DNA of 64,000 nt. It comes from a virus. Below are positions 28,872-61,352 of the stretch, piece by piece. The DNA is taken from IMG/VR virus record IMGVR_UViG_3300043411_000921, positions 124,001 to 188,000 of that record; one strand, 5' to 3'. The notes under the pieces were generated by a model, which worked only from the letters and a program-made list of their open reading frames with translations, did not search any database and had not been told where the DNA came from. Both the position numbers and the translations under genes were made by a program. The number at the start of each line of letters is the position of its first letter. Position 1 is the stretch's first letter.

Positions 28872-29570
28872 ATGAAACTCTATCAGTTCCTATTTGAAAA
28901 CTCTGTTCCAGAAGTCGAGTTCGATCGTGCTGGAACAGAGTTTGTCCCGCCCACCAAAACCATCAAAGCCTACAAACTCTTTCGTGTGAATCCAGCAAAA
29001 CCTGGAGAACTCTTTCCTCTGTTCGTCAATGCCAACCAATCCTTGAAAATTGGTGTTTGGTATGAAGCAGAAGAAGGAGAAAAAGTTATTGACTCCAAGA
29101 CAGGAAAACCCGGAGTCAAGTCGAAGTTGGGAAGGTTGGCTTATAGACCAGGATGGCACGCAGGGGATTATCCCTTTTCCACACACATTGGAATTGAACC
29201 AAAACCCAGTGAAATTTCTGGGAGGATGGCACCTTCGGCCAGGGCAGACAATCAAGTGTGGGCAGAAGTAGAAATGCCAGCAGATTTTGATTGGCAAGAA
29301 GTTGCTGATAGCAGAGCGGAAAAGATCAAGTCTGGTCCCAAGAAAGGACAGATTAGATCTGATACTGCTCACATCACCGATCAAATCCCCAAAGGCGGAC
29401 ATTATCGGTACAAAACCAATCCCAACATGACAGGAAACTGGATCATTGGTGGTGCAATGAAAATCATTCGTGTTCTCTCCGATGAAGAAGTTGAGAAGAT
29501 CAACTCCTCTGCCGGATACAAAGACCTTCCCAGAAAATCTCCCTTCGATCTAAAACGTTACGGCTTCTGA
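28872..29570 (+). CDS. Candidate head-cargo protein with AYKLF...LAYRPGWHAGD domain
   Basis: A 232-residue protein. The start MKLYQFLFENSVPE closely resembles the T4 internal-protein tag (MKTYQEFIAEA), which targets proteins to the prohead and is cut after Glu. The body has KAYKLFRVN, LFPLFVNANQ, GVWYEAEEG, LAYRPGWHAGD and HYRYKTNPNMTGNWIIGG. I recall this combination from large phage and plasmid polyvalent proteins, with no settled function. Prediction: processed after Glu9 and packaged. ATG at 28872. An intergenic repeat element follows. Confidence 0.65.
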   Translation: MKLYQFLFENSVPEVEFDRAGTEFVPPTKTIKAYKLFRVNPAKPGELFPLFVNANQSLKIGVWYEAEEGEKVIDSKTGKPGVKSKLGRLAYRPGWHAGDYPFSTHIGIEPKPSEISGRMAPSARADNQVWAEVEMPADFDWQEVADSRAEKIKSGPKKGQIRSDTAHITDQIPKGGHYRYKTNPNMTGNWIIGGAMKIIRVLSDEEVEKINSSAGYKDLPRKSPFDLKRYGF

Positions 29571-29604
29571 TCTACCATCACCCCTTTTCTTCCGAACAGA
29601 ATCG

Positions 29605-29701
29605 TTCCAGGATGCCCCTTCCGTGTCAGAGAATCATCTGAACGGGTGAGAGTGGCTTGGAACATTTGGGGGCCGCAATAAGGCGTATAGAGCGATTTAG
29701 G
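29605..29701 (+). repeat. Intergenic 96-nt element, copy 2
   Basis: Related to copies at 9825 and 55205. Left arm TTCCAGGATGCC; right arm ATAAGGCGTATAGAGCGATT. The flanking AATCG (29600-29604) pairs with CGATT (29693-29697). Internal blocks GTGTCAG, AATCAT, GGGTGAGAG and TTGGAACATTTGG are shared with the other copies. The left arm here is the arm type found at the right end of copy 3. Confidence 0.65.
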
Positions 29702-29728
29702 AATCTTGGCTGCTGACAACGAATGTTG

Positions 29729-29757
29729 TTGACCCTGAGACGTGGAAGTGGTAGAGA
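29729..29757 (+). promoter_or_regulatory. Leaderless promoter of the 500-residue gene
   Basis: TTGACC, 17 bases, TAGAGA, six bases to ATG 29764. A close match to the promoters at 42100 and 63963. Confidence 0.65.
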
Positions 29758-29763
29758 TAGGGC

Positions 29764-31266
29764 ATGTCATACATTCCAGTAAAACTGAAAGTTTTTCATC
29801 CGAAGAAGGTTGTCTCTTACACGGTGGAAGATGCCGACGAGAAGCCACAGCAGATCGACGTGTTTCCAGGGTTCGCCACTGATGCTGTTGAAGGGAACTC
29901 CCACGAGACAGCAAGGAACTGGGCTGCTGGATATCGGTGGCAGCAAAATGAATATGGCGAGACAGAGTTCAACAATGAACCTGTTGAATCCATTCGTGTT
30001 GTTGGGCTGGAACATCGTCGCAACGGTGGGCGTGCTTGGAAGATCGTTGACCGTGGATTTCTCTTTGATCTTCGTGAACAAGCTTTGCTTGATCTAGTGA
30101 TGAATGGTGCTGGAGTATTTTCCCAGGGAATCGTATCTGGTCCTTTTATTTGGATCAGCAACTCTGGAATGCGCCTTGTCCGTGTGGGTTCAACCCAGCA
30201 CTTGGAGGCAACAAAGGGAAAGCCAAAGGATCCAACTCTGTCTCTACTGAGCCAGGGCGATGTTTTCAAACAGAAGCCAGGAAAGTTTTTGGTGTTGATT
30301 ACAGAGCAATCCCGAAAGGAAGAGATGTGGTTGACCTTTAAGGAAGAGCCGACCCAAGAAGACCTTTCCCCAGAAAAGATTGCGGAACTTCTGATTACTG
30401 GGAAAGTGTTTCAGCCGACAAAGCGGCCTGTTCTTCCTGCCAATTCTCTGATTGGGAACTTGAAGGTAGATTTGGAAGAGGTTTACTGTGTCATTACCAG
30501 GAAGGTTTTGAATGAGCCTGTGAAGTGGGTGGGGAACGGGCACAAACTGTTCACTCAACTTTCCAAAAAGACCGAACTGCGTTATTCGGCTGGGGTCGGC
30601 TCTTTTGTCAACAGTGTTTCCACACTGCAAAACGCCATTAGCAGCATTCTTTTTCCAAACAAGAGGGACGAAGGGGTTGATCAAAGGAATTACAAGGTTA
30701 GCCAGTATTACACTGAGATTGAGAGGGCATGTGATTTGATCGGTCATGATTCTTACGGATACGGCACCCATTTCGCAAAATCCAAATCCATCAAGGTAAA
30801 ACCGATTGATTTTGTTTGGATGATTTGGAAGAAAAAAGAGCAATTGGACTCCGCTGGATTTCAGTCATACTCAGGGAATGAATTGGCCGACATGCAGTTT
30901 GATTGCCCCGAATGCGCGAAGACTGCTAAAGAGTTCGTCCTTTATGATCAGGGTCGTGGTCAAAACGGCTGGGAAAAGCGTGGTGTTTTTCTTGAGAAGG
31001 TGTCAAACCATTTTGTTCACTGTGGCAAACAGACGGCAGAGAATAAGATGAAGATTTTTGAGCAGGCATTTCCAGGAGGCGTTGAGCGGTTTCAACTGAA
31101 GCCTCATCACTTTGAGGATATTGTGCCGCCTTATATCAAAGGGCAGTTCACATATAACGATTACGCTCGTCAGGTAAAGGAAATGATGGGAAGCATTTGG
31201 GCTCGGGATCTGGAACCCAAGCTGATTTCATCCTTTGATTACCCAGAACTCAAGAACAAAGAGTGA
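29764..31266 (+). CDS. Large hypothetical protein
   Basis: A 500-residue soluble protein with no membrane segment or family that I recognise. Near residue 375 it has FDCPECAKTA and further on NHFVHCGKQ, which could bind zinc. The N-terminus is beta-rich (YIPVKLKVFHPKKVVSYTV). It has its own leaderless promoter and follows repeat element copy 2, so it is transcribed separately from the upstream genes. The downstream small gene is coupled by GTGA. Confidence 0.65.
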   Translation: MSYIPVKLKVFHPKKVVSYTVEDADEKPQQIDVFPGFATDAVEGNSHETARNWAAGYRWQQNEYGETEFNNEPVESIRVVGLEHRRNGGRAWKIVDRGFLFDLREQALLDLVMNGAGVFSQGIVSGPFIWISNSGMRLVRVGSTQHLEATKGKPKDPTLSLLSQGDVFKQKPGKFLVLITEQSRKEEMWLTFKEEPTQEDLSPEKIAELLITGKVFQPTKRPVLPANSLIGNLKVDLEEVYCVITRKVLNEPVKWVGNGHKLFTQLSKKTELRYSAGVGSFVNSVSTLQNAISSILFPNKRDEGVDQRNYKVSQYYTEIERACDLIGHDSYGYGTHFAKSKSIKVKPIDFVWMIWKKKEQLDSAGFQSYSGNELADMQFDCPECAKTAKEFVLYDQGRGQNGWEKRGVFLEKVSNHFVHCGKQTAENKMKIFEQAFPGGVERFQLKPHHFEDIVPPYIKGQFTYNDYARQVKEMMGSIWARDLEPKLISSFDYPELKNKE

Positions 31267-31583
31267 CCAAAGCAATGGATTGCCCGTTTAGGATTGGTGG
31301 ATTGTATCGGTGGAAGGGATTGACTCCTCCTTACAGCCCAGAGAATTTTTTCCACCTTTACCCTTGCGGACACGGAAGCAACAATTCTCGCAATTCTACA
31401 AACTCTTCGTATCGAGCCGCCCCAGGCACATGGTTTGTTTTCTTGGCGGTGATTCCCAGCGGACCAAACTTTTTTGCAACTTGTTTGGCACCCGATGGAA
31501 CCGTTCACGAAGCATCTATTCCTCACAGTGGATTGTATTGTTGGGAAGAAGTAACGGAACAAGAAGGAATGGAAAAACAATGA
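31263..31583 (+). CDS. Small protein, possible member of the PG-turn family
   Basis: A 106-residue protein starting at GTG 31263 (GTGA overlap) or ATG 31275. The body reads FRIGGLYRWKG, then APGTWFVFLAV, then TCLAPDGTVHEASI, which follows the same order of strands as the small proteins at 38-41 kb: an opening Gly-x-Leu turn, a hydrophobic FVFLAV-like strand and a PDGTV-like turn. Function unknown. Confidence 0.55.
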   Translation: MTKAMDCPFRIGGLYRWKGLTPPYSPENFFHLYPCGHGSNNSRNSTNSSYRAAPGTWFVFLAVIPSGPNFFATCLAPDGTVHEASIPHSGLYCWEEVTEQEGMEKQ

Positions 31584-32512
31584 CATTCAAATATATCACA
31601 AGAAACACAATCCCGAATGTGACCAATTGTCCATCGCATCGAATTGGTTACACAAATCCCGACGGTTCAAACAACACCATTTTCTATGCCTGTGAGTTTG
31701 TAAACCACCGCGATTCTTTCTTCAAATTACATGCAAGTGAAGAAGAGTTGGTTGAGAATACACTCACTCTAATGGAACAAGAAGGTTTTTTGAGGTGGAC
31801 ATTGGAACCATGTAAAATCCAAGTTGTTTCATTCCCAAACTCTTTGGTTGACTGGTATGCTCACGAAACGGAAACGGAGGTGTATCGTCTTGTGAAAGAT
31901 ACAACATTACACCGCGCAGTGGACTACTACAACCAATTTAACAGACTTCCGAGCGGGTTCTCCTTCACCAAACCAAGCCAATCCAGAAAATTACGGCTTG
32001 CAGACAAAAAGCGAATGTTGGGATTTCGTGGCGCTAATGGCGGCCTCGATTTTTACTGCAAAGAACTCTGGTTCAATGGAGACAAGAAAACATTGCTAAA
32101 ACGTTTCCTTTCAAATTTTACGGAAGGAAAAGGAACAGGGGGTGTGAGAGTCGAAACAGTTGAAAGGCGTGGGAAACCTTCGCTCGCTCCACAGCCAATA
32201 GTTTTAGAAAATGTGTTCGCAGTGCTAGTAGAAGATTATCCAAACCACATTGATTATGTTCCCAAATGTTCATACCACCCCGTTCTGATTGATTGGGGAA
32301 GAGAAACAACGCTGAATCACGAGCTTCTTCAGGAAGAATACATTTTGTTTTGGTTTGAAAAACTGACGAAATGTGGCAACGCCAAACAGAAGCTGGAAGC
32401 TGAATATGAGAAGCTTGGGGCGTTGGATAGGGAGAGGAGGCGTTTGGAAGACGAAGAGCAGAGTCGAAAAAACAACGACGAAATCAAAGAGTTTTTTGGA
32501 GAAGGAGAATAG
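31580..32512 (+). CDS. Hypothetical protein with C-terminal coiled coil
   Basis: About 310 residues from ATG 31580, overlapping the previous stop. Upstream in-frame codons lie inside the preceding gene and are not used. The C-terminal 60 residues are strongly charged and helical (KLEAEYEKLGALDRERRRLE). No family recognised. Confidence 0.6.
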   Translation: MTFKYITRNTIPNVTNCPSHRIGYTNPDGSNNTIFYACEFVNHRDSFFKLHASEEELVENTLTLMEQEGFLRWTLEPCKIQVVSFPNSLVDWYAHETETEVYRLVKDTTLHRAVDYYNQFNRLPSGFSFTKPSQSRKLRLADKKRMLGFRGANGGLDFYCKELWFNGDKKTLLKRFLSNFTEGKGTGGVRVETVERRGKPSLAPQPIVLENVFAVLVEDYPNHIDYVPKCSYHPVLIDWGRETTLNHELLQEEYILFWFEKLTKCGNAKQKLEAEYEKLGALDRERRRLEDEEQSRKNNDEIKEFFGEGE

Positions 32513-32517
32513 CAAAG

Positions 32518-32916
32518 ATGACTAACAAGAGCACAAAGCTACACACAATTGTTTTCAGGGCTGGGGATTCTAGTGGTGATGGCCATGAGAAACACCGCGA
32601 TTGGACTGTTTGCAGCAATCTTTCCAAAGCTGAGATCAATGACGCCTACCTTGCTGCTGTTAAAAAGCTAAGGTTTGATCCAACGGACAATTTTGACGAA
32701 TACAAGGCAAATCGTCTGCCATCGGATCAGGCAGAGAAGTTGATTGCAAGCGGATTTGTGCCAAAAGACAGAGACGAAGACGGAACGGTCTATTTCTATC
32801 CACAAGCCCTACTCCACCTTTTCCTCTTTATGGTAAAGCTTGGAAACCCTGAGTTTGAATATGAGGAAGTGAAAGCCAGCGTGATCTACATTGGCGGATA
32901 TGGATTGTTTCGATAA
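32518..32916 (+). CDS. Hypothetical protein
   Basis: A 132-residue protein, ATG 32518, five bases after its neighbour. It contains a helical, charged middle (KAEINDAYLAAVKKLRF) and a hydrophobic C-terminal part (LLHLFLFMVKLG). It converges on the kinase-like gene with a 15-base gap. No family recognised. Confidence 0.6.
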   Translation: MTNKSTKLHTIVFRAGDSSGDGHEKHRDWTVCSNLSKAEINDAYLAAVKKLRFDPTDNFDEYKANRLPSDQAEKLIASGFVPKDRDEDGTVYFYPQALLHLFLFMVKLGNPEFEYEEVKASVIYIGGYGLFR

Positions 32917-32931
32917 TCTTCGGCTGAAATC

Positions 32932-34200
32932 TCAGTCAAAGAACTTCAGATACCCTTCGGGTCCATTCCTTTGGATCCCAATGTTCCCTTCGTGAAAATC
33001 TGTTGGAATCTTGTTCTTCACCATATGAACAATGTCTTGTGCTAGCTTCACATGCCAATCTCCTGCCAACCTCAAAGCAGCTTCCACATCTAACCCAATC
33101 ATTTTTTTGATCGGAATTGAGATGGCTTTGATGAAATTTTTGTTGAGCAAATCTGGGTTGACTTTGTAGTATTTGAGTTTGCTCGGGCTTGGTTCAAATC
33201 CATCGAAATGGACTTTCAAAATGTCCACCAAACCATTCAATCTTCCGAACATATCAGCAGGGAGAATGTTCTCCATCTTGGTTTCACCACTTCCAGTTTC
33301 CAATCGTTCGGTCAAGAACCAGTCAACTCGCAATGCTCCTTTGAAAACCTTGAAGGTTCCGTGGTCATAAACCATTGGCTGGGAAGTTCCGGCTGGGTCT
33401 CCGCTCCTTTGTTGCTGAGCGCCTGGAATCTTTTTGTGCTTGGTTGCGGCGCCGTGACCAGAATCGGTTTCCATCTTAAAAACATATTCGTGTTCATCTG
33501 AGTCTTTGACGAGGAACGCAAGACCAATTACTCCTGCTCCCATAAAAGAAACCGAAGCTGCATCTGAACCAACCGCTTGCATCAAGTAGGGCGTTGCTTC
33601 TTTTGTGAATGTGGCAACGCATTCTTTGTCTTCCTTGCAATTGGCAAAGGTTTTTCCATCATTAATGATCGCGGTCATTGTGTCATTGTTATACCATTCT
33701 CCATAGGCTGGATGATGCTTCCTGGTACGTTTGAGAGCTTCCATCATAGCATCGAACCATTCCGCCCAAGTAACTCCACCATCCTCTGGTTGCACCTGCT
33801 CAAGAAACAAAATTCTGGAAAGGCTTGTTCTAAACTCTCTTTTCTCAACCAATGAAACGAGCTTGTCAACTTTTCCTGCCAAGTCACCAACCCTGGCAGA
33901 CAACTCTTCTGTACCTTCTCCAGACCCAGGTGTGATTGTTCCTGGGCCTTTTGGAATTGATGTTGTTGCCGGTTTGGTTGCACCAGAGGTTGATCTTGCA
34001 TTTGTTGGATCTTGTTTCTTTTGTCCTTGAGCTTGCTGGATAACCTTCACATCATTCCCGATCTGTTTGACTTGTTTTGTCAATGGTTCAAGAGTGTCTG
34101 TGATGGTCTTTCCAATGTCAGAAAGAGCAGAAGTGTCTTCTGGTGCAGGTTGGACTTGTTCTGACAAAAACAGTAGTGAAGAGAGAAGATGTTGTTTCAT
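32932..34200 (-). CDS. Protein-kinase-like protein with possible capsid-targeting tag
   Basis: A 422-residue protein. Landmarks of a kinase fold appear in order: glycine loop GAGVIG (221-226), VFK with Lys242, a catalytic-loop-like TDFHEGN (Asp401, Asn406) and a terminal LKFFD whose Asp422 could replace the DFG aspartate. The N-terminus MKQHLLSSLLFLSEQVQP and a second segment ILFLEQVQPED (residues 130-140) both look like prohead-protease sites of the L-x-E type. Between them lies a disordered Thr/Gly/Pro-rich linker. ATG 34200 lacks a Shine-Dalgarno. Kinase activity and packaging are inferences. Confidence 0.5.
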   Translation of the reverse strand: MKQHLLSSLLFLSEQVQPAPEDTSALSDIGKTITDTLEPLTKQVKQIGNDVKVIQQAQGQKKQDPTNARSTSGATKPATTSIPKGPGTITPGSGEGTEELSARVGDLAGKVDKLVSLVEKREFRTSLSRILFLEQVQPEDGGVTWAEWFDAMMEALKRTRKHHPAYGEWYNNDTMTAIINDGKTFANCKEDKECVATFTKEATPYLMQAVGSDAASVSFMGAGVIGLAFLVKDSDEHEYVFKMETDSGHGAATKHKKIPGAQQQRSGDPAGTSQPMVYDHGTFKVFKGALRVDWFLTERLETGSGETKMENILPADMFGRLNGLVDILKVHFDGFEPSPSKLKYYKVNPDLLNKNFIKAISIPIKKMIGLDVEAALRLAGDWHVKLAQDIVHMVKNKIPTDFHEGNIGIQRNGPEGYLKFFD

Positions 34201-34291
34201 GGGGAGGGTGTTGGTAAATACCAATATTCGTGGGATGGAGCATGTTAGACTGCTGGAGTCTAGCAACACCAAGAAAGGGAAGCCACAAACA

Positions 34292-34921
34292 ATGTTTGAA
34301 ATCACAACAGATAGCCCCAATTTTTCAAAGCCAGAACAATCTGAAACCGGAGATATTCTCCTCCGATACCGTTCTCCTGGAATCATCTATGTCAACCGAT
34401 TCAACGAGGAAGCAGCTAAGGAGTTCCACCAGGAAATGATTAACGCTCAAAACACTGGGCAAACCGTTATTCCCATTGTGGTTGATTCTTACGGTGGGGA
34501 AGTTTATTCCCTTCTCAAGATGATTGATGTCATCAAAGCTTCAAAGATTCCAGTTTCAACCATTTGTCTTGGGAAAGCAATGTCTTGTGGAGCAGTTCTC
34601 TTGAGTTGTGGATCTCCAGGAATGAGATATGCTGCTCCTTATGCAACAGTCATGATTCACGATGCTGCTTCTTACGCTGCCGGAAAGTGTGAGGAAATCA
34701 AAGCAGAAGCAAAGGAAGTCGAACGTTTGAACAAGATGATTTTCAGAATCATGGCTGAGAATGCCAGTAAGCCAGCGGATTATTTCTCAAAAATCGTTCA
34801 CGAGAAGGGACATGCCGATTGGTACCTCGAACCAGAAGAAGTTAAGGAACATGGTCTGATTGATTTTGTTTCTGTTCCCAAGTTGAAGGTTGAGTTCAAG
34901 GCAACGGTGAGTTTCCAATGA
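34292..34921 (+). CDS. ClpP-like serine protease
   Basis: A 209-residue protein of the ClpP fold. The catalytic serine lies in GKAMSCGAVL (Ser98) and the histidine in MIHDAA (His123); the third residue is probably in GLIDFV near the C-terminus. The oxyanion-like region SYGGEV is present. ATG 34292 follows AAAGGGAAG at the right distance; longer in-frame starts exist but lack one. No Clp ATPase is visible here, so it may use a host ATPase or process virion proteins. It overlaps the DHFR gene by four bases. Confidence 0.8.
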   Translation: MFEITTDSPNFSKPEQSETGDILLRYRSPGIIYVNRFNEEAAKEFHQEMINAQNTGQTVIPIVVDSYGGEVYSLLKMIDVIKASKIPVSTICLGKAMSCGAVLLSCGSPGMRYAAPYATVMIHDAASYAAGKCEEIKAEAKEVERLNKMIFRIMAENASKPADYFSKIVHEKGHADWYLEPEEVKEHGLIDFVSVPKLKVEFKATVSFQ

Positions 34922-35910
34922 CCAATGCAACTCCTGAAAATCCTGATATCATCCTGATTGCCGCCGCTTCTTTGGATGGTTACATCGGAATTGACAACAA
35001 GTTGCCCTGGCATTCCCCAGCCGACATGAAACACTTCCGCCAACAGACAGAGGGTCATGTCGTGATCATGGGAAGAAAAACCTTTGATAGCCTTGGCGGA
35101 AAACCACTGAAAAACAGGGTCAACATCATTTTGACCCGGAATGGAAATCTTGAGACTCATGGCACCGAACCCCTGTTTGCCAGCTCAAAACAGCAAGCAT
35201 TGATGATTGCAAAAACACAATGCGAGTTCTTAAACTCGAAAAAAATCTTTGTCATTGGAGGCGAAGAGATTTACGCCCAGTTCCTTGAAGATGCCACAGA
35301 AATTCTTCTAACGACATTCAACGTGCGATTGGGCCCGCTTGGACCTCTTATCGACGCATACACATACACTCCCAGACTTTCTAAGTTTCCCAATTGGGAA
35401 ACGTTTCAAAAGGATGGCGGCTGGATTCCTTATGCTTATTGTTCCGATGAGTTTGATTCAAACGCAACACTGACTCCAAGCGGGGAAGAAGTGTTTGAAA
35501 CTCTTGAAAAAGAGAACAATGGATTGAGTTACACAATTTCTCCTCTTCAGAAACTCGTAAGAGATGTTGGATATCTTGTGAAAGAGAAGCCAACACCAAC
35601 TCCTGAGCTTGGTCAATATGAAAAACTGGCTTTAGAGATCGGATCGTTGGTTCAGTCCAAGAACAAGACTTATGGTTCTGCTTTTGACAAGGCTGGAGAG
35701 TTTTTGTCTGTGTTGTTTCCGAACGGTGTTCCTGTTGACCGATACAAAGACATGCTCTGTTTGGTCAGGATGTTCGACAAGATGATGAGGATTTCAACCT
35801 CTGAGTTTGAAGGAACAGATGAAAAGAGAGAAGAGGCTTACCGCGATCTGGCTGGATATTCTCTTCTTGGTTTGAACTCTGAAAAGATGAGCAAGGAGAA
35901 GAAAGCATGA
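34918..35910 (+). CDS. Dihydrofolate reductase fused to an Nmad1-like domain
   Basis: A 330-residue fusion. Residues 1-200 are DHFR: IAAASLDGYIGIDNKLPWH, VIMGRKTFDSLG and FVIGGEEIYAQFL, covering the folate and NADPH sites. Residues 235-325 (SKNKTYGSAFDKAGEFL, DMLCLVRMFDKMMRI, YRDLAGYSLLGL) resemble the DUF1599/Nmad1 domain linked to nucleotide modification. DHFR regenerates tetrahydrofolate after thymidylate synthase. The role of the C-terminal domain is inferred. ATGA overlaps on both sides. Confidence 0.8.
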   Translation: MTNATPENPDIILIAAASLDGYIGIDNKLPWHSPADMKHFRQQTEGHVVIMGRKTFDSLGGKPLKNRVNIILTRNGNLETHGTEPLFASSKQQALMIAKTQCEFLNSKKIFVIGGEEIYAQFLEDATEILLTTFNVRLGPLGPLIDAYTYTPRLSKFPNWETFQKDGGWIPYAYCSDEFDSNATLTPSGEEVFETLEKENNGLSYTISPLQKLVRDVGYLVKEKPTPTPELGQYEKLALEIGSLVQSKNKTYGSAFDKAGEFLSVLFPNGVPVDRYKDMLCLVRMFDKMMRISTSEFEGTDEKREEAYRDLAGYSLLGLNSEKMSKEKKA

Positions 35911-36140
35911 AAGTTTTGAACGAAAGGGTTTTGGGGGTTCAAGGGCCTTGGCTTATCAAGGGTCGCTATGTCCAATACTCAACAAGGGAACAAGGAACCT
36001 TTCACAGGCCCGAACTTGTTTTTGAAAAGCAGCCTGGGATTCAGCAGGGCCTAGAGGTTGGCTTCTCCCTTGAAGATATTGGAAGATTTCAAGCATTGTT
36101 GAAACAATATGCTGCTGAGAACTATCACTCCACTTCCTAG
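35907..36140 (+). CDS. Hypothetical small protein
   Basis: A 77-residue protein coupled to DHFR by ATGA and converging on the split kinase gene with a 4-base overlap. It has a beta-rich start (MKVLNERVLGVQGPWLIKGR) and a helical end. No family recognised. Confidence 0.6.
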   Translation: MKVLNERVLGVQGPWLIKGRYVQYSTREQGTFHRPELVFEKQPGIQQGLEVGFSLEDIGRFQALLKQYAAENYHSTS

Positions 36141-36661
36141 AACAATCCTTCCAACTCACTCCTGATCTGCTCTCTGCTCTTCCTAATCGAATCCACAACC
36201 TTCCTCTCTTGATAAGAAAGAGGGGAAACAGGAATGGATTTATCTCCCAATCCCAGAGAAGCAGGATACCTTAACACCTTCTCTCCATTCTCTTCTGCCG
36301 CTTCCAACAAGGATGTTGTTTCGTAGTAGGTGCAAACAGGTTCATTTAAGAACCATTGCTTTAACTCGGAGTAGTGTTCCAGGTACCCATCCAGGGTATT
36401 TCCGATCAAGTAGCTGGAAAACATCCTTCCTCCAGACTCCCCTCTTTTCCTTGTGGTGTCGATACTCAGTTCTTTTGGTGCATACACGGAGAGGTACAAC
36501 AACTCATATCCGTTCACCTTGCAGAACTCAATTTCGTCTCTATACCTTCTCTGCCCTGTGCCTTCGATAACAAAAGACTTGAGCTGACTTTCAAACCCTC
36601 GCTGAAGGCCCTTGGCGTGTTTTCTGGAGTCGTCTCTGTATCTTTTCAGGGTCGCATCCAC
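36137..36661 (-). CDS. C-terminal part of a split zeta-toxin-like P-loop kinase
   Basis: 174 codons from GTG 36661. It is in the same frame as the upstream P-loop fragment, separated only by one TAA and three codons. The sequence (FVIEGTGQ, VNGYELLYLSVYAP, GGRMFSSYL) fits the distal half of zeta-toxin-like phage kinases, where a Gly-Tyr strand and a GGR motif follow the P-loop half. The GTG has no clear Shine-Dalgarno. Either a nonsense mutation split the gene, or two chains are made, or the stop is read through. Confidence 0.6.
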   Translation of the reverse strand: MDATLKRYRDDSRKHAKGLQRGFESQLKSFVIEGTGQRRYRDEIEFCKVNGYELLYLSVYAPKELSIDTTRKRGESGGRMFSSYLIGNTLDGYLEHYSELKQWFLNEPVCTYYETTSLLEAAEENGEKVLRYPASLGLGDKSIPVSPLSYQERKVVDSIRKSREQIRSELEGLF

Positions 36662-36670
36662 ATCGGGAGG

Positions 36671-36904
36671 TTATCGCCCAGAAAAGGCGTTTTGAACCGT
36701 TATGCCCCTGCTTCTCAAATCCTCATCCGAGTTAATCAAATCCTCTAGCTTTTCATCCAGGTTCACAAAACCCACATTGGCCTTCTTCAAGATTTCTTTG
36801 ACGAAGAATGTTTTACCTGCCCCCAGTGGTCCTTGAAGCAACAAGATTTTGGGTTTGGTATTGCTTGAACTCTCGAACAGAAGGCGTGCTAAACTGGTAT
36901 TCAC
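36671..36904 (-). CDS. N-terminal P-loop part of the split kinase
   Basis: Encodes ILLLQGPLGAGKT, a Walker A motif, then a helix and NLDEKLEDLINSD, where zeta-type kinases carry a substrate Asp. It ends at TAA (36671-36673) after AFSGR. GTG 36904 is taken as start; an in-frame TTG at 36928 is possible and would overlap the dnaJ start. Alone it is too short to be a complete kinase; with the downstream part the total of about 260 residues fits the family. Confidence 0.6.
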   Translation of the reverse strand: MNTSLARLLFESSSNTKPKILLLQGPLGAGKTFFVKEILKKANVGFVNLDEKLEDLINSDEDLRSRGITVQNAFSGR

Positions 36905-36914
36905 CAAGTTAGAT

Positions 36915-37814
36915 ATGAAAAAACACAACCACCTTTATTCCATCCTGGGTGTAGAACCATCTGCAACCCAAGAACAAATCAAAACCGCTTACAGAGCAAA
37001 AGCTCTCAAGACACATCCTGATCGCAACCAAAACAATCCCAAGGCAGAAGAGGAATTCAAGGAAATCACTTCGGCCTATGAAACTCTCTCCAACCCAGAG
37101 AAGAGAACCGAATATGATTTGTTGCAAAATCCACCTGTTCATCCGTTTCCAAACACTGATGAGTTTTTCTCTTACAGGTGGTCAACGCAACAGGCTCGCA
37201 ATCGCTCAGAAAGGGTCCATGCGGGCGACGTAAGGATTGGTATGGGTGAGACCCTAACAGAACAAATCCGTGACGTAGAAATGGCGATTAGAGCCTCCTG
37301 CACCAAATGCCTCGGTCTTGGGATGAGAGGCATGGAAGATTTCTGCTCCAACTGCGAGGGAAGAGGTTGGAATTTTACCAATAGAAGCTTCCCTGTGAAA
37401 ATTCCCGCTGGTGTTTTTGACGGTTATACCGTTTCAACAAAGGTTCCAGGTGTTGGAGAACTTCAAACCAAGGTGTTGCTGGACATCCCAGAAAACATCA
37501 AACTTGGGCCAACGGGAAAAGTTGTGATGTCCCTGGATATTCCTTATCATCTTGCAGTGCTCGGTGGCCCATTGAAGTTGGACTTGTTTGATGGATCCAG
37601 TGTAACTGTGAAAGTTCCACCATTGAAGAAGCCAAAACAGATGTTGAAGTTGGCTGGGAAGGGGTTGGTGGTCCAGCCAGGAGGGAAGAGTCGAGGGGAT
37701 TTGTTTTTGAGTTTTGGGATTGAGTACCCACCAACGAACTTGTCTGACGAGTACAAGACAACCGTTGAGAAGCTTGCCACATTGTACTCACAAGAACAGG
37801 AAGGTAACAAATGA
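36915..37814 (+). CDS. DnaJ-like co-chaperone
   Basis: A 299-residue Hsp40. The J domain (residues 5-70) has the Hsp70-activating HPD in KTHPDRNQ. It then has a single zinc hairpin pair, CTKCLG and CSNCEG, half of the usual four repeats. The C-terminal substrate-binding region follows (VKIPAGVFDGYTV and DLFLSFGIEYP). It likely recruits the host DnaK to phage proteins. ATG 36915. The promoter is unclear. The next gene overlaps by ATGA. Confidence 0.9.
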   Translation: MKKHNHLYSILGVEPSATQEQIKTAYRAKALKTHPDRNQNNPKAEEEFKEITSAYETLSNPEKRTEYDLLQNPPVHPFPNTDEFFSYRWSTQQARNRSERVHAGDVRIGMGETLTEQIRDVEMAIRASCTKCLGLGMRGMEDFCSNCEGRGWNFTNRSFPVKIPAGVFDGYTVSTKVPGVGELQTKVLLDIPENIKLGPTGKVVMSLDIPYHLAVLGGPLKLDLFDGSSVTVKVPPLKKPKQMLKLAGKGLVVQPGGKSRGDLFLSFGIEYPPTNLSDEYKTTVEKLATLYSQEQEGNK

Positions 37815-38062
37815 AACAGACATACAAACTCAGTTATAGATTCATCGCTCAATTGGCAAAACTGGTTCAACTCAGCATGTTGACTGGTGAGCCTCTCAAG
37901 GAAAACATGCTGCAAATGCGTGTTGAGGTTGGTGGAGAAGATGGAAATGAGATTGTTCTGACTCCAGAATACGAGGAGTATTTCGAGAACTGTCTTGAAA
38001 CTCTGCTCCAGCAAGCTGATGCAATCCAAGAGAATATGCGAAACACTCCCGCCGAAGCCTGA
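37811..38062 (+). CDS. Hypothetical small protein after dnaJ
   Basis: An 83-residue protein coupled to dnaJ by ATGA: an N-terminal helix (YRFIAQLAKLVQLSMLTG), a short acidic beta segment and a C-terminal helix. No family recognised. It converges on the small membrane protein gene. Confidence 0.65.
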   Translation: MKQTYKLSYRFIAQLAKLVQLSMLTGEPLKENMLQMRVEVGGEDGNEIVLTPEYEEYFENCLETLLQQADAIQENMRNTPAEA

Positions 38063-38063
38063 T

Positions 38064-38270
38064 CTATTTCGTTCGTTTCATCACAAGCCCAAAAATCAGG
38101 GCTGCAAATCCAAACAAAGAAAAACACAGGAACTCACCGTTACTGATCTTTCCAAAATAGTGAAGGAACATGACAGTGATCAAAATGACAATGCCAAAAA
38201 AACCAGTTAGGAGAATAATTGCGTTCTCCTGACGGTCTTCTGGGGCGGTATTATTGTCGTTGTTATTCAT
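38064..38270 (-). CDS. Small membrane protein with two transmembrane helices
   Basis: A 68-residue protein with hydrophobic segments around AIILLTGFFGIVILITVMF and LCFSLFGFAALIFGLVM, short polar N-terminus and basic tail. The last gene of the 38-42 kb minus-strand operon; its ATG overlaps the preceding stop. Possibly inserted in the inner membrane. Function unknown. Confidence 0.65.
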   Translation of the reverse strand: MNNNDNNTAPEDRQENAIILLTGFFGIVILITVMFLHYFGKISNGEFLCFSLFGFAALIFGLVMKRTK

Positions 38271-38505
38271 CGACTGTCTCTCCTGGAAATATCAGTTCTT
38301 TAATCCCAGAGGTGAACCACAAGCCAAAAATACGAGTTGTGATCCTATCTTCACACAGCAACTCGCATTCGATGCAAGTTTTTCCGCCAGGAAGATGAAT
38401 GGTTCTCGAAGAAAGAACCAACATGTAACTGGATTCGAGATAGGGCGACTCGTACAATAACAAAGTGCCTGCTGGATATAAGTCGCTTGTTTTACTCATA
38501 ATCAT
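38263..38505 (-). CDS. Small PG-turn family protein (array member 11)
   Basis: About 80 residues: LYPAGTLLLYES, the hydrophobic strand SSYMLVLSS, IECELLCED and an acidic end GETVDE. It shares the order PAGTLL, strand, strand, acidic tail with the ten genes upstream. ATG choices at 38505 and 38499. Its start overlaps the previous gene by 14 bases. Confidence 0.65.
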   Translation of the reverse strand: MIMSKTSDLYPAGTLLLYESPYLESSYMLVLSSRTIHLPGGKTCIECELLCEDRITTRIFGLWFTSGIKELIFPGETVDE

Positions 38506-38746
38506 TTGGGTTTACTTCCCTCAAACCGAGGGCAACCCAACCGTCCCCTTTTGCATTTTCAACATTTCCATCTGGAGACAAGATGTCGTACTGAGTAAGG
38601 GATTCTCCATTTTGGAAATTAAACACTTTTGAAGAAAGGATTAGATAGAAACCTCTTGGGAACACATGCTCGCTGTATTTCAAGGCCCAGTCCGTCAACT
38701 CCAGCAAAGTTCCAGGTGAATACAGCTTGTTTGGATCAGTCATCAT
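38492..38746 (-). CDS. Small PG-turn family protein (array member 10)
   Basis: 84 residues from ATG 38746: LYSPGTLLELTD, GFYLILSSKVF, QYDILSPDGNVE and an acidic end NPNDYE. This is the clearest example of the family pattern: a PGTLL opening, a GFYLILSS strand and a DG turn. A longer frame upstream lies inside the neighbouring gene. Confidence 0.7.
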   Translation of the reverse strand: MMTDPNKLYSPGTLLELTDWALKYSEHVFPRGFYLILSSKVFNFQNGESLTQYDILSPDGNVENAKGDGWVALGLREVNPNDYE

Positions 38747-38990
38747 AATCCGTTGTTTCCACTTTCTCAAAAATTTCAAACATGCCTACCACGTCCCACA
38801 CCATTTCCTTTCCCGTTTTGGCAAAAAGCAAGGTGACTTGCTCAAAAGTTGGATGGTGTGCAACTACCACACAGTAATCTCCAAGTCCTTCATCTTCCCA
38901 ACTGCTTTCTTCGACATCTTTGACACGCAAGAGGGTTCCGATGGGAAATTCTCGAAACGTTTGTGCCCACCATTTGTCAGCTTTTTTCAT
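38736..38990 (-). CDS. Small PG-turn family protein (array member 9)
   Basis: 84 residues from ATG 38990 in a cagtgATGA overlap: FPIGTLLRVKD, GDYCVVVAHH, VTLLFAKTGKEMVWDV and acidic end ETTDYDD. Confidence 0.7.
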   Translation of the reverse strand: MKKADKWWAQTFREFPIGTLLRVKDVEESSWEDEGLGDYCVVVAHHPTFEQVTLLFAKTGKEMVWDVVGMFEIFEKVETTDYDD

Positions 38991-39241
38991 CACTGTTCAA
39001 CGTCTCCATCTTCCAACTCGACAACCGCCATATGTTTTACTGGTGAACCATCCCCGTATGTCAGGCTCCAAGTTTGGACTTCCCCACACTTGTCCAAAGC
39101 AAGGATAGTTTTGTGCTTTCCTTGCGGTGGTAAAACCATTACGACGAGAAGAAATCCTTTTCTGAGAGAGTATGGATGAGAGTAATCCAGCAACATCCCA
39201 GCGATTAAATCTTCATCAGATCCTATTGGTCTTGTTTTCAT
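38990..39241 (-). CDS. Small PG-turn family protein (array member 8)
   Basis: 83 residues, ATG 39241: MKTRPIGSDEDLIAGMLLDY, GFLLVVMVLPP, ILALDKCGEVQTWSL and acidic end LEDGDVEQ. The N-terminus is nearly the same as member 2 (MKTRPIKSFDDLHPGMLL), direct evidence of duplication. Confidence 0.7.
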   Translation of the reverse strand: MKTRPIGSDEDLIAGMLLDYSHPYSLRKGFLLVVMVLPPQGKHKTILALDKCGEVQTWSLTYGDGSPVKHMAVVELEDGDVEQ

Positions 39242-39501
39242 TCTTCATCCGTTGTCTCGACTACAACAAAACCTTCGTACTGCATTAGTTTCCAATTCCA
39301 TTCATGCAATTCCCCCGAAGGTTCCAAAAAAGTAAACAATTCAAAATTTCCTGACGAATACCTCCCGTCCGGTTTGCGATCTACTAGCAAGTAAAACCCC
39401 AAATCCCAAGCAACAAGACAGGTGGTGCTGGCCTCCTCACCTCCACGATACAGGAGAATCCCCAGCCTGGGTTCAACTTTTGATAACGGCTTGGTTTTCA
39501 T
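39238..39501 (-). CDS. Small PG-turn family protein (array member 7)
   Basis: 87 residues: MKTKPLSKVEPRLGILLYRG, DLGFYLLVDRKP, FTFLEPSGELHEWNW and acidic end VETTDEE. It overlaps the next gene by ATGA. Confidence 0.7.
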   Translation of the reverse strand: MKTKPLSKVEPRLGILLYRGGEEASTTCLVAWDLGFYLLVDRKPDGRYSSGNFELFTFLEPSGELHEWNWKLMQYEGFVVVETTDEE

Positions 39502-39504
39502 TCT

Positions 39505-40100: not shown

Positions 40101-40108
40101 GCCTGTTT

Positions 40109-50456: not shown

Positions 50457-51830
50457 ATGTCGCACAATTATTTCGCTGAGAAACAAGAGGTTCAAGACAA
50501 TCTAATTCGGGCTGTTGACAAGCTGGAGAGACAAATGAGTGCGATCACTCTTGCTATCAGTTCTCCAAACCAAACATATCTCACCGAAAATTCTTTTCAA
50601 CTTCTTACCAAACTTCTTCTTCCGTCCAACCCTTGGGAAAGAATGCTCTATCAGGAGCTTGTTCAGAAGTGTTATCAATTGGAAATGCGTTGTCAGGGTT
50701 CATCCCCGATGTTTCTCAGAGCCTTTGCTGCTGCTGCAAGAGAAATCACGAGGAAACAAGGGTCTTACCGTGAGCTTGTGGAGGATAACCAGAAGAGCAA
50801 CCAAAGATACTCTCAAGAAATACTTCCTCACTGCTACCCTTCCTCCCCATCTTTCATCAAAGAAGAAATACAAAAAGCCTGTCAAAACCTCTCAATCCCA
50901 GCAACCGCTGTCGAAGAGGCAATCAAGTTGGCTGGGGTTGAGGGAAATATTGTCTTGGCAGAGGAAGAAGTCCCATCTGTTCTGGTTGAGTTGCAATTTG
51001 GCTATAACTTCTCAATGAACCCATTCAAAGGTTTCATCCCAACAAATGGAACTTGGACGAGAGCGGAAACAAAAATCATGCTGGTAGACGGAATGCTAGA
51101 ATCTGTTTCTGAAATTGACAAGCTTCTAAATGGCTGCTATTCCAGCAAAATCCCGGTGATCTTGATTGCACAAGGTTTTTCAGAAGAGGTAGTTGCAACC
51201 CTTCATGCAAATTACTCCCGAGGTTCTTTGGATGTTTTTCCTTTGAGAACTCAACAGAACTTGGAAGCAATCAACATTATGAATGACATTGCTGTTGTTT
51301 CTGGAACTGATGTTATCAGCACGCTCAAAGGAGAACGTTTGGGAACAGTGGGTTTGGATTCCCTTGGTTCGGTTGAAAAGGCTTCAATCACCGGAAACGT
51401 TTTGACAATTCACAATTCCAGAACCAGAGGAAATGTTCTTTCTCACCTTGGTTATCTGGAGAAGAGAAGGGTTGAGCAAGCAGAAACATCACAGGTTTCA
51501 GATTTGGCAGATTTGACTTCAAAGAGGATTCAGAATCTTTTGGCACATCTTGTGAAGGTAACGATTCCAAAGGGGGACGTTAATCGCTTCAGGGGGATTA
51601 TAGACAACGCCATTCGGGCTTGTCGTACTTCCATCACCTACGGTTATTGCAAGCCGCTAGAAATCAACCTGGAGCGATTGGAGCCCATGTGGAGAAAAGC
51701 TCACCTGGGTGCGATCAAAAATCTGGAAGGTGAGAAAGTTTCGAGTGTTGGTTTGTGGTTGTCTGTGAGGATGGGAGTGGAACTTGCAACGGCTTATTTC
51801 ACTGCTGCTGGGGCATTGGTCAGGAACTAA
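50457..51830 (+). CDS. Divergent GroEL-like chaperonin with degraded ATP site
   Basis: 457 residues, shorter than GroEL (about 548). The apical and intermediate regions are recognisable: VEGNIVLAEEE (GroEL KEGVITVEE), LVELQFGYNFSMNPFKGFI (EGMQFDRGYLSPYF), IPVILIAQGFSEEVVATLHA (PLLIIAEDVEGEALATLVV), and NIMNDIAVVSGTDVISTLKG (AMLQDIATLTGGTVISEE). The equatorial ATP motifs are missing: no TLGPKGRN, no GDGTTT, and the GGG turn is YGYCKP. One Asp equivalent to D398 (IIDNAIRACR) seems kept. ATG 50457 follows AGGAAAAAGG. It may be a cap, an inhibitor or a non-ATPase chaperone. Confidence 0.65.
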   Translation: MSHNYFAEKQEVQDNLIRAVDKLERQMSAITLAISSPNQTYLTENSFQLLTKLLLPSNPWERMLYQELVQKCYQLEMRCQGSSPMFLRAFAAAAREITRKQGSYRELVEDNQKSNQRYSQEILPHCYPSSPSFIKEEIQKACQNLSIPATAVEEAIKLAGVEGNIVLAEEEVPSVLVELQFGYNFSMNPFKGFIPTNGTWTRAETKIMLVDGMLESVSEIDKLLNGCYSSKIPVILIAQGFSEEVVATLHANYSRGSLDVFPLRTQQNLEAINIMNDIAVVSGTDVISTLKGERLGTVGLDSLGSVEKASITGNVLTIHNSRTRGNVLSHLGYLEKRRVEQAETSQVSDLADLTSKRIQNLLAHLVKVTIPKGDVNRFRGIIDNAIRACRTSITYGYCKPLEINLERLEPMWRKAHLGAIKNLEGEKVSSVGLWLSVRMGVELATAYFTAAGALVRN

Positions 51831-52503
51831 GAACGGTCTTTGCCAACTCTTTGTGTGTCTTCATTGAGACATAAAGCTTCATGGATGGCATTGACTCACA
51901 CAGAACTCCCAGATCCAACATTGTCATCTTTGACAGTTCTTCAGCGATCATTGAAACAAGTTGCTCGGAACCAACCAGGAAGCTGTGTGAGTTCGCTTTG
52001 GAGATGCAAAACTCCAGAAGTTTTTGTGAATCTTTTCCGTAAGCCTCTTGGAGTGTTTGCTTTGGACTATGTTTTTTCTGAAGCATCTTGACGGCTTCAC
52101 CAACACATTTCCCGACAGCTTCAGAGACAAAGGTATAATTCAAGAGAGTGGATTCAACCAAGGCTGGATCCCTTCTTGACTCACTCAAATTCTTTCCTGT
52201 TTCCATTGTAAGGTGAAAGAGGGTTGGAATTTGTTTTTGGTATTTGGAAACAACCTCCTCCAGCTTCTCGATTGATTCTGCTACGGCCAAGGTTTCTGTT
52301 TGTTCGTGGAGGAAGAGGTCAATTGGGTAGATTCCTTTTGAAACCAGAGCCTCTTGTGCTTCAACCAATCTGTTTGCGTATTCTTTCCACATTGCGGGGT
52401 TTTCCTTTTTCTCGTGTTTTGAGAGTGCTGGTAAGTATCTTTTGAGACCTGAACACGTTTTTGCTTGCCTCGCATGAAAGACTGTGTTAGAAAGGGTAAG
52501 CAT
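51820..52503 (-). CDS. Hypothetical helical protein
   Basis: 227 residues from ATG 52503. Mostly helical, with Cys and Lys scattered (RYLPALSKHEKKENPAMWKE, VSEAVGKCVGEAVKMLQKK). The start codon overlaps the divergent start at 52502 within one CATG. The end overlaps the GroEL-like gene by eleven bases. No family recognised. Confidence 0.65.
   Translation of the reverse strand: MLTLSNTVFHARQAKTCSGLKRYLPALSKHEKKENPAMWKEYANRLVEAQEALVSKGIYPIDLFLHEQTETLAVAESIEKLEEVVSKYQKQIPTLFHLTMETGKNLSESRRDPALVESTLLNYTFVSEAVGKCVGEAVKMLQKKHSPKQTLQEAYGKDSQKLLEFCISKANSHSFLVGSEQLVSMIAEELSKMTMLDLGVLCESMPSMKLYVSMKTHKELAKTVLSS
52465..52493 (+). promoter_or_regulatory. Promoter of the cysteine-cluster gene
   Basis: TTGCCT, 17 bases, TAGAAA, eight bases before ATG 52502. 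A weaker -35, but the spacing is as in the other near-leaderless units. It lies inside the divergent gene. Confidence 0.4.
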
Positions 52504-56982: not shown

Positions 56983-56990
56983 GTAGTCTC

Positions 56991-57620: not shown

Positions 57621-57625
57621 GCGAA

Positions 57626-58431: not shown

Positions 58432-58435
58432 GACA

Positions 58436-58732: not shown

Positions 58733-58734
58733 TG

Positions 58735-59499
58735 TTAGCTCGTTGAGGATGATCCTACGCTACCACCACCAGAAGGAACACCGCCACCATTATCTGGACC
58801 AGAGTTGCCAGCCCTTGGAGCAGCAGGATAATCACCTTCAACCTGCTTCTTCGTCTTGGCTGTAAGATCAAAGTCACGCTCCAAAATATTCACCATCTCT
58901 TTAGCAAGTCTTGGCGAGTAGTTCTTTGAAATGTAAAACATTGCTCGATTTAGAATCAAGGATTTTGGATCAATGAGTGTTTGATAGTTGTTCACAAGCC
59001 TAGCAACGCCTTCAGCAAACTTCCTGATGTTGATTTTTGGAACGGGAACAACTTCTGGGGGATTGCTTTCAGTGTCGTCTCCTCCATCGTCACCGCCACC
59101 AAACGGATCATCTCCACCACCCATGTCCATATCACCAGCATCATCGACAGGTGGTTCTGGTGGAGCTTCTTGCTCAAACAAGAACTTTCCCATCGAGAAC
59201 AAACGTTTTCCTTTTTTCCTTTCGGTCAATGGGGGTGTTTGAATGTTGTCTTTGACTTGTGCAGGATCAACAGGAAGTGCCCCATCCGTTTCCGGCATAT
59301 CCAGAGGGACTGACTCTCTTTCAAACTGCATGAGATACTTGTCAATCTTCTGATCAACAGAAGCTTCTGTCTCTGACAAGGAATCAGAAACACTGGGAAG
59401 CTGAAGAATCTGTTCTGGGCTGGAGACATAGGGCTTTCCATCTCCACCACCCTCTTCCTGTTCTCTCAACAAGAACTCGCTGAAACGTTTCTTTCTCAT
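58735..59499 (-). CDS. Candidate internal head protein with two protease sites
   Basis: 254 residues from ATG 59499 (a TTG six bases earlier is rejected). MRKKRFSEFLLREQEEGG at the start and MGKFLFEQEAPPE near residue 107 both fit the L-x-E cleavage type of T4 prohead protease. Between and after them are disordered Asp/Gly/Pro stretches (DMDMGGGDDPFGGGDD) and one folded helical region (INIRKFAEGVARLVNNYQTL) with a Gly/Ser tail. It resembles a scaffold or internal core protein that is processed twice. Confidence 0.6.
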   Translation of the reverse strand: MRKKRFSEFLLREQEEGGGDGKPYVSSPEQILQLPSVSDSLSETEASVDQKIDKYLMQFERESVPLDMPETDGALPVDPAQVKDNIQTPPLTERKKGKRLFSMGKFLFEQEAPPEPPVDDAGDMDMGGGDDPFGGGDDGGDDTESNPPEVVPVPKINIRKFAEGVARLVNNYQTLIDPKSLILNRAMFYISKNYSPRLAKEMVNILERDFDLTAKTKKQVEGDYPAAPRAGNSGPDNGGGVPSGGGSVGSSSTS

Positions 59500-59501
59500 A
59501 A

Positions 59502-60317
59502 TCAAAGGATCCTTCCACCAAGAACTTCAACTGGAGGAGATGATTGTGGCAATCCAACGCTCGTCTCCTTCTCATTTGAAACAACAGCTTGGACAGAGTA
59601 AAGCTGGTGGAGCTTCGCCATCTCAGCAATCAACATTCTCATTTCAACAACATTCCAATTGATTTCTCGCATGGAGCGATTGAGATATTCAAGCTTCTCT
59701 CCTGGGAAATCAAGGAACCAAGCGTGGTGCCATGTGTCAAGAACCAGCACTGGAATTGCCATCAATGGAAGATGAAGGGTATGACCTTCAACAAAAGTGT
59801 TGAAATAACGTTGTTTGAACGGATCGAAGTAACAAACAGCCCAACCTTCTCTGGACGCCATTCCGCAAGCTCTGAAATCCAATTGCCACTGGTCGAAGGT
59901 TCCCCAATCCCTTGAAAGACGCATAAAAGGAATGCTGTCAGCACGAATCTCGGAGTTCAAATCTCCCGTGTTGGTGAACAACAACTCGTGGAACTTCACT
60001 CCGTTCATGTTGTGAGTCTCATCAATCTTCAACCTTCTGAACTCTGAATCGTTTGGGTTATCTGCATCTGTCTTTGGAACAGAATCCAGCTTCGCAGAAA
60101 TTTTGTTGTGACTTGTGACGTAGCTGTTATACAGCTTTTCGTGGTTTTCCTTTGTTGTGGGGGATGAAACATCGCCCTTCAAAATAAATGAACGAGGCAT
60201 CAACACAGCCGCTTCTGAAACAACAGCTTTTGCCGCTTGTGCTACCTTTCCATCCAAAACTGTTCCAACAGCTTCTCGAATGATCTTCTGGAGATCTTTT
60301 GCATTGAGGGTCGTCAT
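59502..60317 (-). CDS. Fe/Mn superoxide-dismutase-like protein
   Basis: 271 residues. The C-terminal two thirds resemble Fe/Mn-SOD: VKFHELLFTN (His110, equal to the NHxxFW ligand), WGTFDQWQLDF, GWAVCYFD, IPVLVLDTWHHAWFLDF (Asp194 and His198, as in DxWxHA) and REINWNVVE. The first ligand is doubtful: ungapped alignment at ENHEKLYNSYV puts Asn58 at the ligand and His59 next to it. The start LQKIIREAVG is an Ile-x-Glu tag. It may be packaged, and may bind a metal, but enzyme activity is uncertain. Confidence 0.7.
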   Translation of the reverse strand: MTTLNAKDLQKIIREAVGTVLDGKVAQAAKAVVSEAAVLMPRSFILKGDVSSPTTKENHEKLYNSYVTSHNKISAKLDSVPKTDADNPNDSEFRRLKIDETHNMNGVKFHELLFTNTGDLNSEIRADSIPFMRLSRDWGTFDQWQLDFRACGMASREGWAVCYFDPFKQRYFNTFVEGHTLHLPLMAIPVLVLDTWHHAWFLDFPGEKLEYLNRSMREINWNVVEMRMLIAEMAKLHQLYSVQAVVSNEKETSVGLPQSSPPVEVLGGRIL

Positions 60318-60323
60318 GTGTTC

Positions 60324-61352
60324 TTACTTCTTCTTCCTTGATCTTACAGTCTCTGTAAATAGACCAGAAAGGGGTGCATGAGCATCATCATCCAATCCAA
60401 GCCTGTCTGCAATGTTCAGCATTCCTCTATCTTCCGCAGCATCCCCAGCCCTTGAAACTCTTGTGTCTCCGAGGGAAGGGAACACCCCCTGATAACTCGG
60501 ACCCGACTCCCCAAGAGGGAACAGGATTTCTCTTATTGATTCCCCTTTGGATCCCTCTTCTGGTAATGTTCCACTAGACAACATCCCTGACAACTTTCTC
60601 ATCGGGTTTTCTCGTGTGTTCTCCAAGAAGACGTAAGCGAGGGCATCACACGTCACGGATCCTTTTGCGAGCACCTCTTGTTGATATTCGTAGGTGTCCT
60701 CCCCGACCTCCAGGTACTTCGCAGCCTCAAACATGTTGAAAAAGAAGCTGTTTTCCTCGGTCTTGCACCTTCCAAGGACAACAAATCCCTTGGGAATATC
60801 ACCTTCCATGCGAACCTGACCAAAAAGCTTGGGCATGGACTCTTCCCTCCTGGACCAACTGGTGATATTATTCCCGGCTCTAGGTGACATAATAGCGCCA
60901 CGAACGACTCCTTCCTTACCAGGAGTCGTCAAGCCTGTTAGACGCCTCAGATAATCCTCCTGGATGCCAAAGAGAACCCTCCAGGCATATCCCTCTCTCA
61001 CCTGAAAGAATTTCTTGTACCAACCCTGCTCCTTCATCTTCCACATCAGGTCAACCATTTTTTCCAGGCCATCCCTGTTGTTCCATGAATAGTAGTTGCC
61101 AAGAGCAGCAATCAACCTCTTTTCTTCGGGAGAATCCTCTTCCTGAATATTTTCCTCGTAAACGTTCTTCCTCATCCACCCAAAAAGATATTCCCCAAAA
61201 GGTGCGTCTTTCGGAGCTTCTGGTGGAGGAGAATCCTTCACAACAGCAACCTTCTTTTTTGGTTTGGGTGGCAGCCAAGGCTTGTCTGGATCAAACTCCC
61301 AATCATCCCATCCGTCACTTTCCCATAAAAACCTTGAAATTCTAGGCGTCAT
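60324..61352 (-). CDS. ADP-ribosyltransferase-like protein with capsid-tag start
   Basis: 342 residues. Three landmarks of R-S-E type mono-ADP-ribosyltransferases lie in order: GYAWRVLFG (Arg125), NNITSWSRREE (Ser165-Trp-Ser167) and YEYQQEVLAKG (Glu226, a QxE-type turn). The start MTPRISRFLWESDGWDDW has Leu-Trp-Glu, a prohead-protease-type site at residue 11. T4 Alt is packaged, trimmed and injected to modify RNA polymerase; this gene fits the same idea. Target unknown. ATG 61352. Confidence 0.55.
   Translation of the reverse strand: MTPRISRFLWESDGWDDWEFDPDKPWLPPKPKKKVAVVKDSPPPEAPKDAPFGEYLFGWMRKNVYEENIQEEDSPEEKRLIAALGNYYSWNNRDGLEKMVDLMWKMKEQGWYKKFFQVREGYAWRVLFGIQEDYLRRLTGLTTPGKEGVVRGAIMSPRAGNNITSWSRREESMPKLFGQVRMEGDIPKGFVVLGRCKTEENSFFFNMFEAAKYLEVGEDTYEYQQEVLAKGSVTCDALAYVFLENTRENPMRKLSGMLSSGTLPEEGSKGESIREILFPLGESGPSYQGVFPSLGDTRVSRAGDAAEDRGMLNIADRLGLDDDAHAPLSGLFTETVRSRKKK

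Follow-up and report, generated by a model that had tools for sequence, protein, structure and literature searches.

Probable T4-like N-terminal targeting segments on a broad set of putative head-cargo proteins in an uncultivated large phage

The closest described counterpart of the system reported here is the capsid-targeting sequence (CTS) of phage T4, carried by IPI, IPII, IPIII and the N-terminal propeptide of Alt. The first ten residues of IPIII suffice for head targeting; residues 4 and 7 matter in targeting, residues 8 and 10 in processing, and a CTS with Asp at position 10 is still targeted and stays uncut (PMC9026906). A review of T4 proposes the CTS as a general loading route for varied proteins (PMC9026906). 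In this study we describe a set of N-terminal segments (tags) in a window of 64,000 nucleotides, positions 124001-188000 of the 241,399-base virus record IMGVR_UViG_3300043411_000921. These segments are very probably CTSs of the T4 type, cut by the phage's own protease and borne by a broad set of head-cargo proteins. As in T4, they are N-terminal stretches of about ten residues, hydrophobic at the targeting positions and ending in an L/I-x-E site (cut by gp21 in T4), and the mature parts of the proteins bearing them are unrelated. T4 differs in that a handful of cargoes has been described there, whereas the parts of this genome that were read encode about ten putative ones or more, and its clade has about 50-65 tagged body families before the roughly 15 expected by chance are removed. 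Unlike T4, the cargo here includes a superoxide dismutase (SOD), a GP88 protein and a possibly kinase-like protein, and several members have a second, internal site.

Two further systems invite comparison. Head propeptides of phiKZ and SPN3US (proteases gp175 and gp245) likewise occur in large phages, with genomes from about 240 kb upwards, in which a distant relative of gp21 cleaves many head proteins after Glu. Unlike in those phages, the capsid protein, portal and protease are here of T4 type (gp23, gp20, Peptidase_S77) and the motif follows the L/I-x-E of T4. For polyvalent proteins, known from phages and from conjugative elements, packaging and injection together with the DNA have been predicted (PMC5512222; Iyer et al. 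2017), and both they and the tagged cargo are thought to deliver effectors along with DNA. In other phages the domain of one tagged protein is found on the same polypeptide as LPD38 or ART-PolyVal; unlike polyvalent proteins, it is present here as a separate tagged protein of 232 residues and not as part of a giant multidomain one.

The seven N-termini that a first-pass annotation had singled out were all recovered by translation at their positions. They are given below with the internal sites of the same proteins; proteins are named hereafter by their start position, and a slash marks the putative cut.

28872-29570, plus strand: 232-residue protein, tag MKLYQFLFE/NS (28872-28898), body a phrog_30118 domain
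32932-34200, minus strand: 422-residue candidate kinase-like protein, tag MKQHLLSSLLFLSE/QVQP (34159-34200)
33799-33834, minus strand: second site of the 34200 protein, FRTSLSRILFLE/QVQP, directly preceding its kinase-like domain
23708-25189, minus strand: 493-residue GP88 (PF17338) Cys-cluster protein, tag MTMKKKLRYLILNE/GA (25148-25189)
58735-59499, minus strand: 254-residue protein, tag MRKKRFSEFLLRE/QE (59461-59499)
59173-59199, minus strand: second site of the 59499 protein, FSMGKFLFE/QEAP, kept in 9/9 aligned sequences
59502-60317, minus strand: 271-residue predicted Fe/Mn superoxide dismutase, tag ...LQKIIRE/AVG (60273-60317)
60213-60230, minus strand: second site AVVSE/AAV at the start of the SOD domain, conserved in relatives
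60324-61352, minus strand: 342-residue protein, tag MTPRISRFLWE/SD (61320-61352)
60507-60530, minus strand: internal site EILFPLGE/SGPS of the 61352 protein, at the fusion point of two genes of relatives
12510-12803, minus strand: 97-residue protein, tag MRLTVKKLKEMIRE/AVV (12762-12803)

The likeness of MKLYQFLFENS to the T4 tag, on which that annotation had remarked, holds at the positions that mutagenesis ties to targeting and processing. In MKTYQEFIAE of T4 ipII and ipIII, residues Y4, F7, I8 and E10 correspond to P7, P4, P3 and P1, and these are the positions that are fixed in the present motif. In the 25189, 59499 and 34200 tags the distal hydrophobic residue stands at P8 or P9, not at P7. 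The start of the 34200 protein is an in-frame ATG within an open reading frame (ORF) opening at 34386, and the 62 residues upstream look non-coding; the same four residues, QVQP, follow both of its sites.

The first-pass annotation had made its reading depend on a gp21-type prohead protease, and the genome encodes one (Peptidase_S77, PF03420, E 1e-26), its gene adjoining those of a T4-type gp20 portal and gp23 capsid protein. When it is aligned with T4 gp21, its segments GELDH and GISSRALGSL fall on the segments with the T4 His and Ser, and both residues, which we take to be catalytic, are conserved. In the capsid protein, SSMLNE/SLSL aligns with the E65/A66 cleavage site of T4 gp23, and every one of the clade's capsid proteins that were aligned (76/76) has hydrophobic-[L/I]-x-E there, mostly V/L-L-R/K-E/S/A (the second-last slash marking the cut). 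Related capsid proteins are also present in the Flavobacterium immuto phages and in Rhodothermus phage RM378. The specificity deduced from the clade's capsid proteins, independently of the tags, thus comes out the same as theirs at P4-P1. In the same genome the protease (L003:2667-3287, genome positions 210667-211287, minus strand) itself starts MTTPNNKTLLLKE/VAS, and some proteases of relatives match the motif near the N-terminus; a possible explanation of this sequence is a self-processing site.

An excess of the motif over chance was measured against shuffled N-termini of each protein (2000 shuffles for the [LI]xE rule), in the 112 proteins called across the window together with two 20-kb stretches that lie to the right of it. 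The bare T4 rule [LI]xE within residues 2-21 is weak alone, matching 35/112 proteins against 20.1 after shuffling (maximum of the shuffles 33). Hydrophobic-[LI]-x-E is found in 24 of the 112 against 6.2 (maximum 16), and no N-terminal excess appears among these proteins when D, Q or K replaces E in the hydrophobic-hydrophobic-x pattern. A search of residues 2-26 for a fuller, helix-like motif, [hyd]xx[hyd][ILVM]xE, finds it in 17/112 proteins against 3.3 (maximum 9). Among 1188 proteins in 89 related loci, 171 match against 40.5 (maximum 59), with the Glu concentrated at residues 7-21. Collapsing homologues leaves the excess in place, with 16.6 of 105 families against 3.2 expected in this genome and 54.7 of 355 against 13.5 in the relatives. 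Controls without the protease behave differently: contigs that have the 28872 domain and belong to a group in which no gp21-type protease was found show no excess (19/552 vs 13.5). A protease match is present in 10/10 clade records searched and absent from 6/6 control records, so that, among the phages compared, the tag excess goes together with the gp21-type protease. Elsewhere in the same genome, three 20-kb stretches, one with a baseplate protein gene, give 1/60 vs 1.8. As a positive control, the regular expression run on 67 annotated T4 proteins finds ipII, ipIII and gp24, and also gp2, gp68 and two probable chance matches. The T4 match in gp2 is MAIFQIINE/STPQ, and it is likewise at the N-terminus that gp68 matches the tag motif (T4 is L174 in our set).

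The sites stay conserved in orthologues while the surrounding linkers diverge. Of the SOD orthologues, which come from nine other contigs, all but that of L091 retain the N-terminal site, and the second SOD site, [hyd][hyd]xE/A (e.g. KLLKE/AV), is kept in every relative examined, L091 included. In the 59499 protein both Glu-Gln junctions are retained in all aligned sequences, and the linkers barely align. The sites are also modular. In place of the one gene for the 61352 protein, relatives (L084-L092) have two adjacent genes, each tagged, which points to a gene fusion or fission; the internal EILFPLGE/SGPS of the 61352 protein aligns with LxxLLFE/TGPS, the N-terminal tag of the relatives' separate gene. 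Residue 29 is the first of the 28872 protein that its PHROG match covers, and the homologues of its domain examined in other phages lie within long ORFs that lack a tag. A case outside this genome is L015:18244-21566, where five adjoining genes open with near-identical MKIK[SP]LIFE and the sequence after the tag differs.

With regard to the cargo, the earlier calls fared unevenly: the superoxide dismutase was upheld by sequence and the cysteine-cluster protein as GP88, the kinase-like call is plausible but unproven, and the ADP-ribosyltransferase-like call found no support in a fold search. The protein at 59502-60317 is confirmed by sequence comparison as an Fe/Mn superoxide dismutase. It matches PF02777 (E 1e-14), with PF00081 below the cut-off, and SODs in the PDB (best 1coj, 3.7e-23); four candidate metal ligands, assigned by inspection, lie in NHEKLY, KFHELLF and LDTWHHAWF. 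No match to it was found among 50,697 phage records, and nine relatives are present in viral contigs. A natural guess is that it would deal with superoxide early in infection. GP88, in the 25189 protein, is a Cys-cluster family of unassigned function. The 34200 protein has a glycine-rich loop and DFHEGNIG and FFD motifs, which make a kinase-like fold plausible; it has no Pfam or PDB sequence match, its AlphaFold2 (AF2) model has a mean confidence (pLDDT) of 37, and there is one 216-residue homologue (L031). A pattern scan for viral relatives of the 34200 and 61352 proteins gave none, although blastp on the related loci did find homologues. Near the capsid gene of L031 (12865-15040), the homologue of the 34200 protein stands close to another possibly kinase-like protein, whose N-terminus, MTSNIFRLLTE/N, resembles a tag.

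The 28872 protein is well predicted (AF2 pLDDT 81, tag disordered), and its model has no significant PDB relative in Foldseek; the protein has no Pfam match. An assignment as ADP-ribosyltransferase was dropped, since the rifampin ADP-ribosyltransferase 2hw2 reaches only E 3 (probability score 0.08). The viral matches of the model are large uncharacterised proteins, and DUF7666 and RIIB-like proteins are matched weakly. Roseobacter phage CRP-212 has the domain in a protein of 1203 residues, the gene of which stands between those for portal and coat; elsewhere the domain lies within proteins bearing LPD38 or ART-PolyVal, and by such domain company it counts as a polyvalent-protein domain. DUF7178 shares polypeptides with it in L096 and CRP-212 and forms tagged solo proteins in L009 and L010. 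The tagged set may be the 'effector arsenal' that the first-pass annotation suggested, and this view gains weight from the occurrence of the 28872 domain within large multidomain proteins of other phages, some with Pfam polyvalent-protein domains.

At least ten unrelated proteins thus appear, from their sequences, to be marked for head loading. The earlier proposal of a set of packaged head-cargo proteins with a T4-like tag is supported by the enrichment, the protease and the matching capsid site, packaging being what these together suggest. During prohead assembly the hydrophobic face (P7, P4, P3) of a short, often Lys/Arg-rich helix would dock the tagged protein onto the scaffold core. The gp21-type protease, which would also mature the capsid protein at hydrophobic-L-x-E, would then cut after the Glu. 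The mature protein would be freed inside the head, stay there as part of the virion and exit with the DNA at infection, to act in the host. The tag is modular, since proteins as different as SOD, GP88, the candidate kinase and the one with the polyvalent-protein domain carry it, and where a second site lies at the start of the functional domain the linker would be removed too.

The strongest alternative, which we still hold to be unlikely, is that most tagged proteins belong to the prohead core or scaffold, like gp67, gp68 and gp22 of T4, and are shredded by the protease and leave the head, so that few are delivered. Several small charged tagged proteins do stand beside the capsid gene (L002:13668, 15384, 16397), and the most widely conserved tagged families of the relatives are small genes near the capsid gene. 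However, the window set contains folded enzymes and domains (SOD, GP88, the well-predicted 28872 domain), and its members bear a single site or a pair of sites close to the N-terminus instead of many along the whole chain. It is much less probable that the helix is an address to another compartment, such as a phage nucleus, the membrane or the replisome, with an incidental Glu; other sorting systems are generally known to be able to use short amphipathic helices at the N-terminus, but the excess is specific to Glu at P1, follows the gp21-type protease and matches the capsid cut site, and the Glu and the next residue are kept in orthologues, internal sites included. Least credible of all is a chance resemblance owed to common hydrophobic N-terminal helices ending in L/I-x-E, as the bare rule's 20 or so matches after shuffling might suggest, since for the whole set it is contradicted by the counts of the fuller motif, the conserved sites and the lack of excess in control phages and elsewhere in the genome, although single members may possibly have arisen so.

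Several points weigh against reading the segments as T4-type targeting sequences, or lower the counts. The Glu is lost in some orthologues, namely at the first SOD site of L091 and in the L015 and L012 homologues of L003:8095. The capsid site fits the motif at P4-P1 only, without a hydrophobic P7, and T4 ipI is missed by the fuller regular expression. That expression was refined once the tags had been seen, and because of this the controls matter; about 3 of its 17 matches here are expected by chance. The related loci were gathered around head genes, and a home-made gene caller leaves some starts uncertain (34200; L086 and L089 were miscalled). About 164 of the 241 kb of the genome were read, as chosen stretches plus searches, and the tag count refers to these and is not genome-wide. 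A profile of 14 tags run against the whole genome, a search of low sensitivity, found 12 places only, all known tags.

A look for other tagged proteins elsewhere in the genome, which the first-pass annotation had recommended, found more in the head-gene region. In the window three further proteins have tag-like N-termini:

26984-27235, plus strand: 83-residue protein, probable tag MKDLIQLLVLE/AAY (26984-27016)
51820-52392, minus strand: 190-residue protein, possible 30-residue propeptide ending IDLFLHE/QTE (52303-52323)
12810-13457, minus strand: 215-residue protein, possible but ambiguous tag ...LILEEIELFLE/QGIL

In 4 relatives the site of the second is retained in the form hydrophobic-FLKE/[SH] or one like it, and a blastp-type comparison of the third with the related loci gave no homologue. 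Three motif matches were set aside as probably due to chance: the Prim-Pol protein at 42135-43322 (minus strand, MPSSIKQIILE/NKF), in which PF09250 starts at residue 11 and IKQIILE probably belongs to the native first helix; the 21663 protein, with Pro after the Glu; and L003:8996. Tagged proteins of relatives also include a LysM-lysozyme and a DnaJ-WGR protein. In L010:4059, L009:5187 and L036:7954 we noted tag-like N-termini with Gln or Lys replacing the Glu (e.g. MKLTKVQLKEMIRQ), which by analogy with Asp10 of T4 might be targeted and left uncut. Finally, an array of small proteins (about 65-130 residues) at 38492-41029 of the window (minus strand) and in L187 (genome positions 20001-40000) shares a motif resembling G-x-L-[LY]-x-[LV] close to the N-terminus and looks like a large paralogous family.

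The principle of the system is that of T4; within the literature searched, there is no precedent for its extent, its cargo or its double sites. That literature, mostly other than subscription papers, covered CTS work on T4 and giant phages and contained no report of a clade-wide tag or of a packaged phage SOD. Our findings provide a sequence rule, checked against shuffled sequences and protease-free phages, that predicts the head-packed proteins of a large uncultivated phage group and turns unannotated proteins into testable candidates for early-infection effectors. They also link the T4 targeting tag to polyvalent proteins and suggest a virion-borne superoxide dismutase. As a more tentative extension, to which we give somewhat less than even weight, this clade of uncultivated T4-type large phages might mark dozens of unrelated families with a single head address, modular and removable, as an alternative to giant polyvalent proteins, so that domains which other phages inject as one polypeptide would be single tagged proteins here. 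The cargo might then include an active superoxide dismutase, delivered at infection to blunt oxidative host defence.

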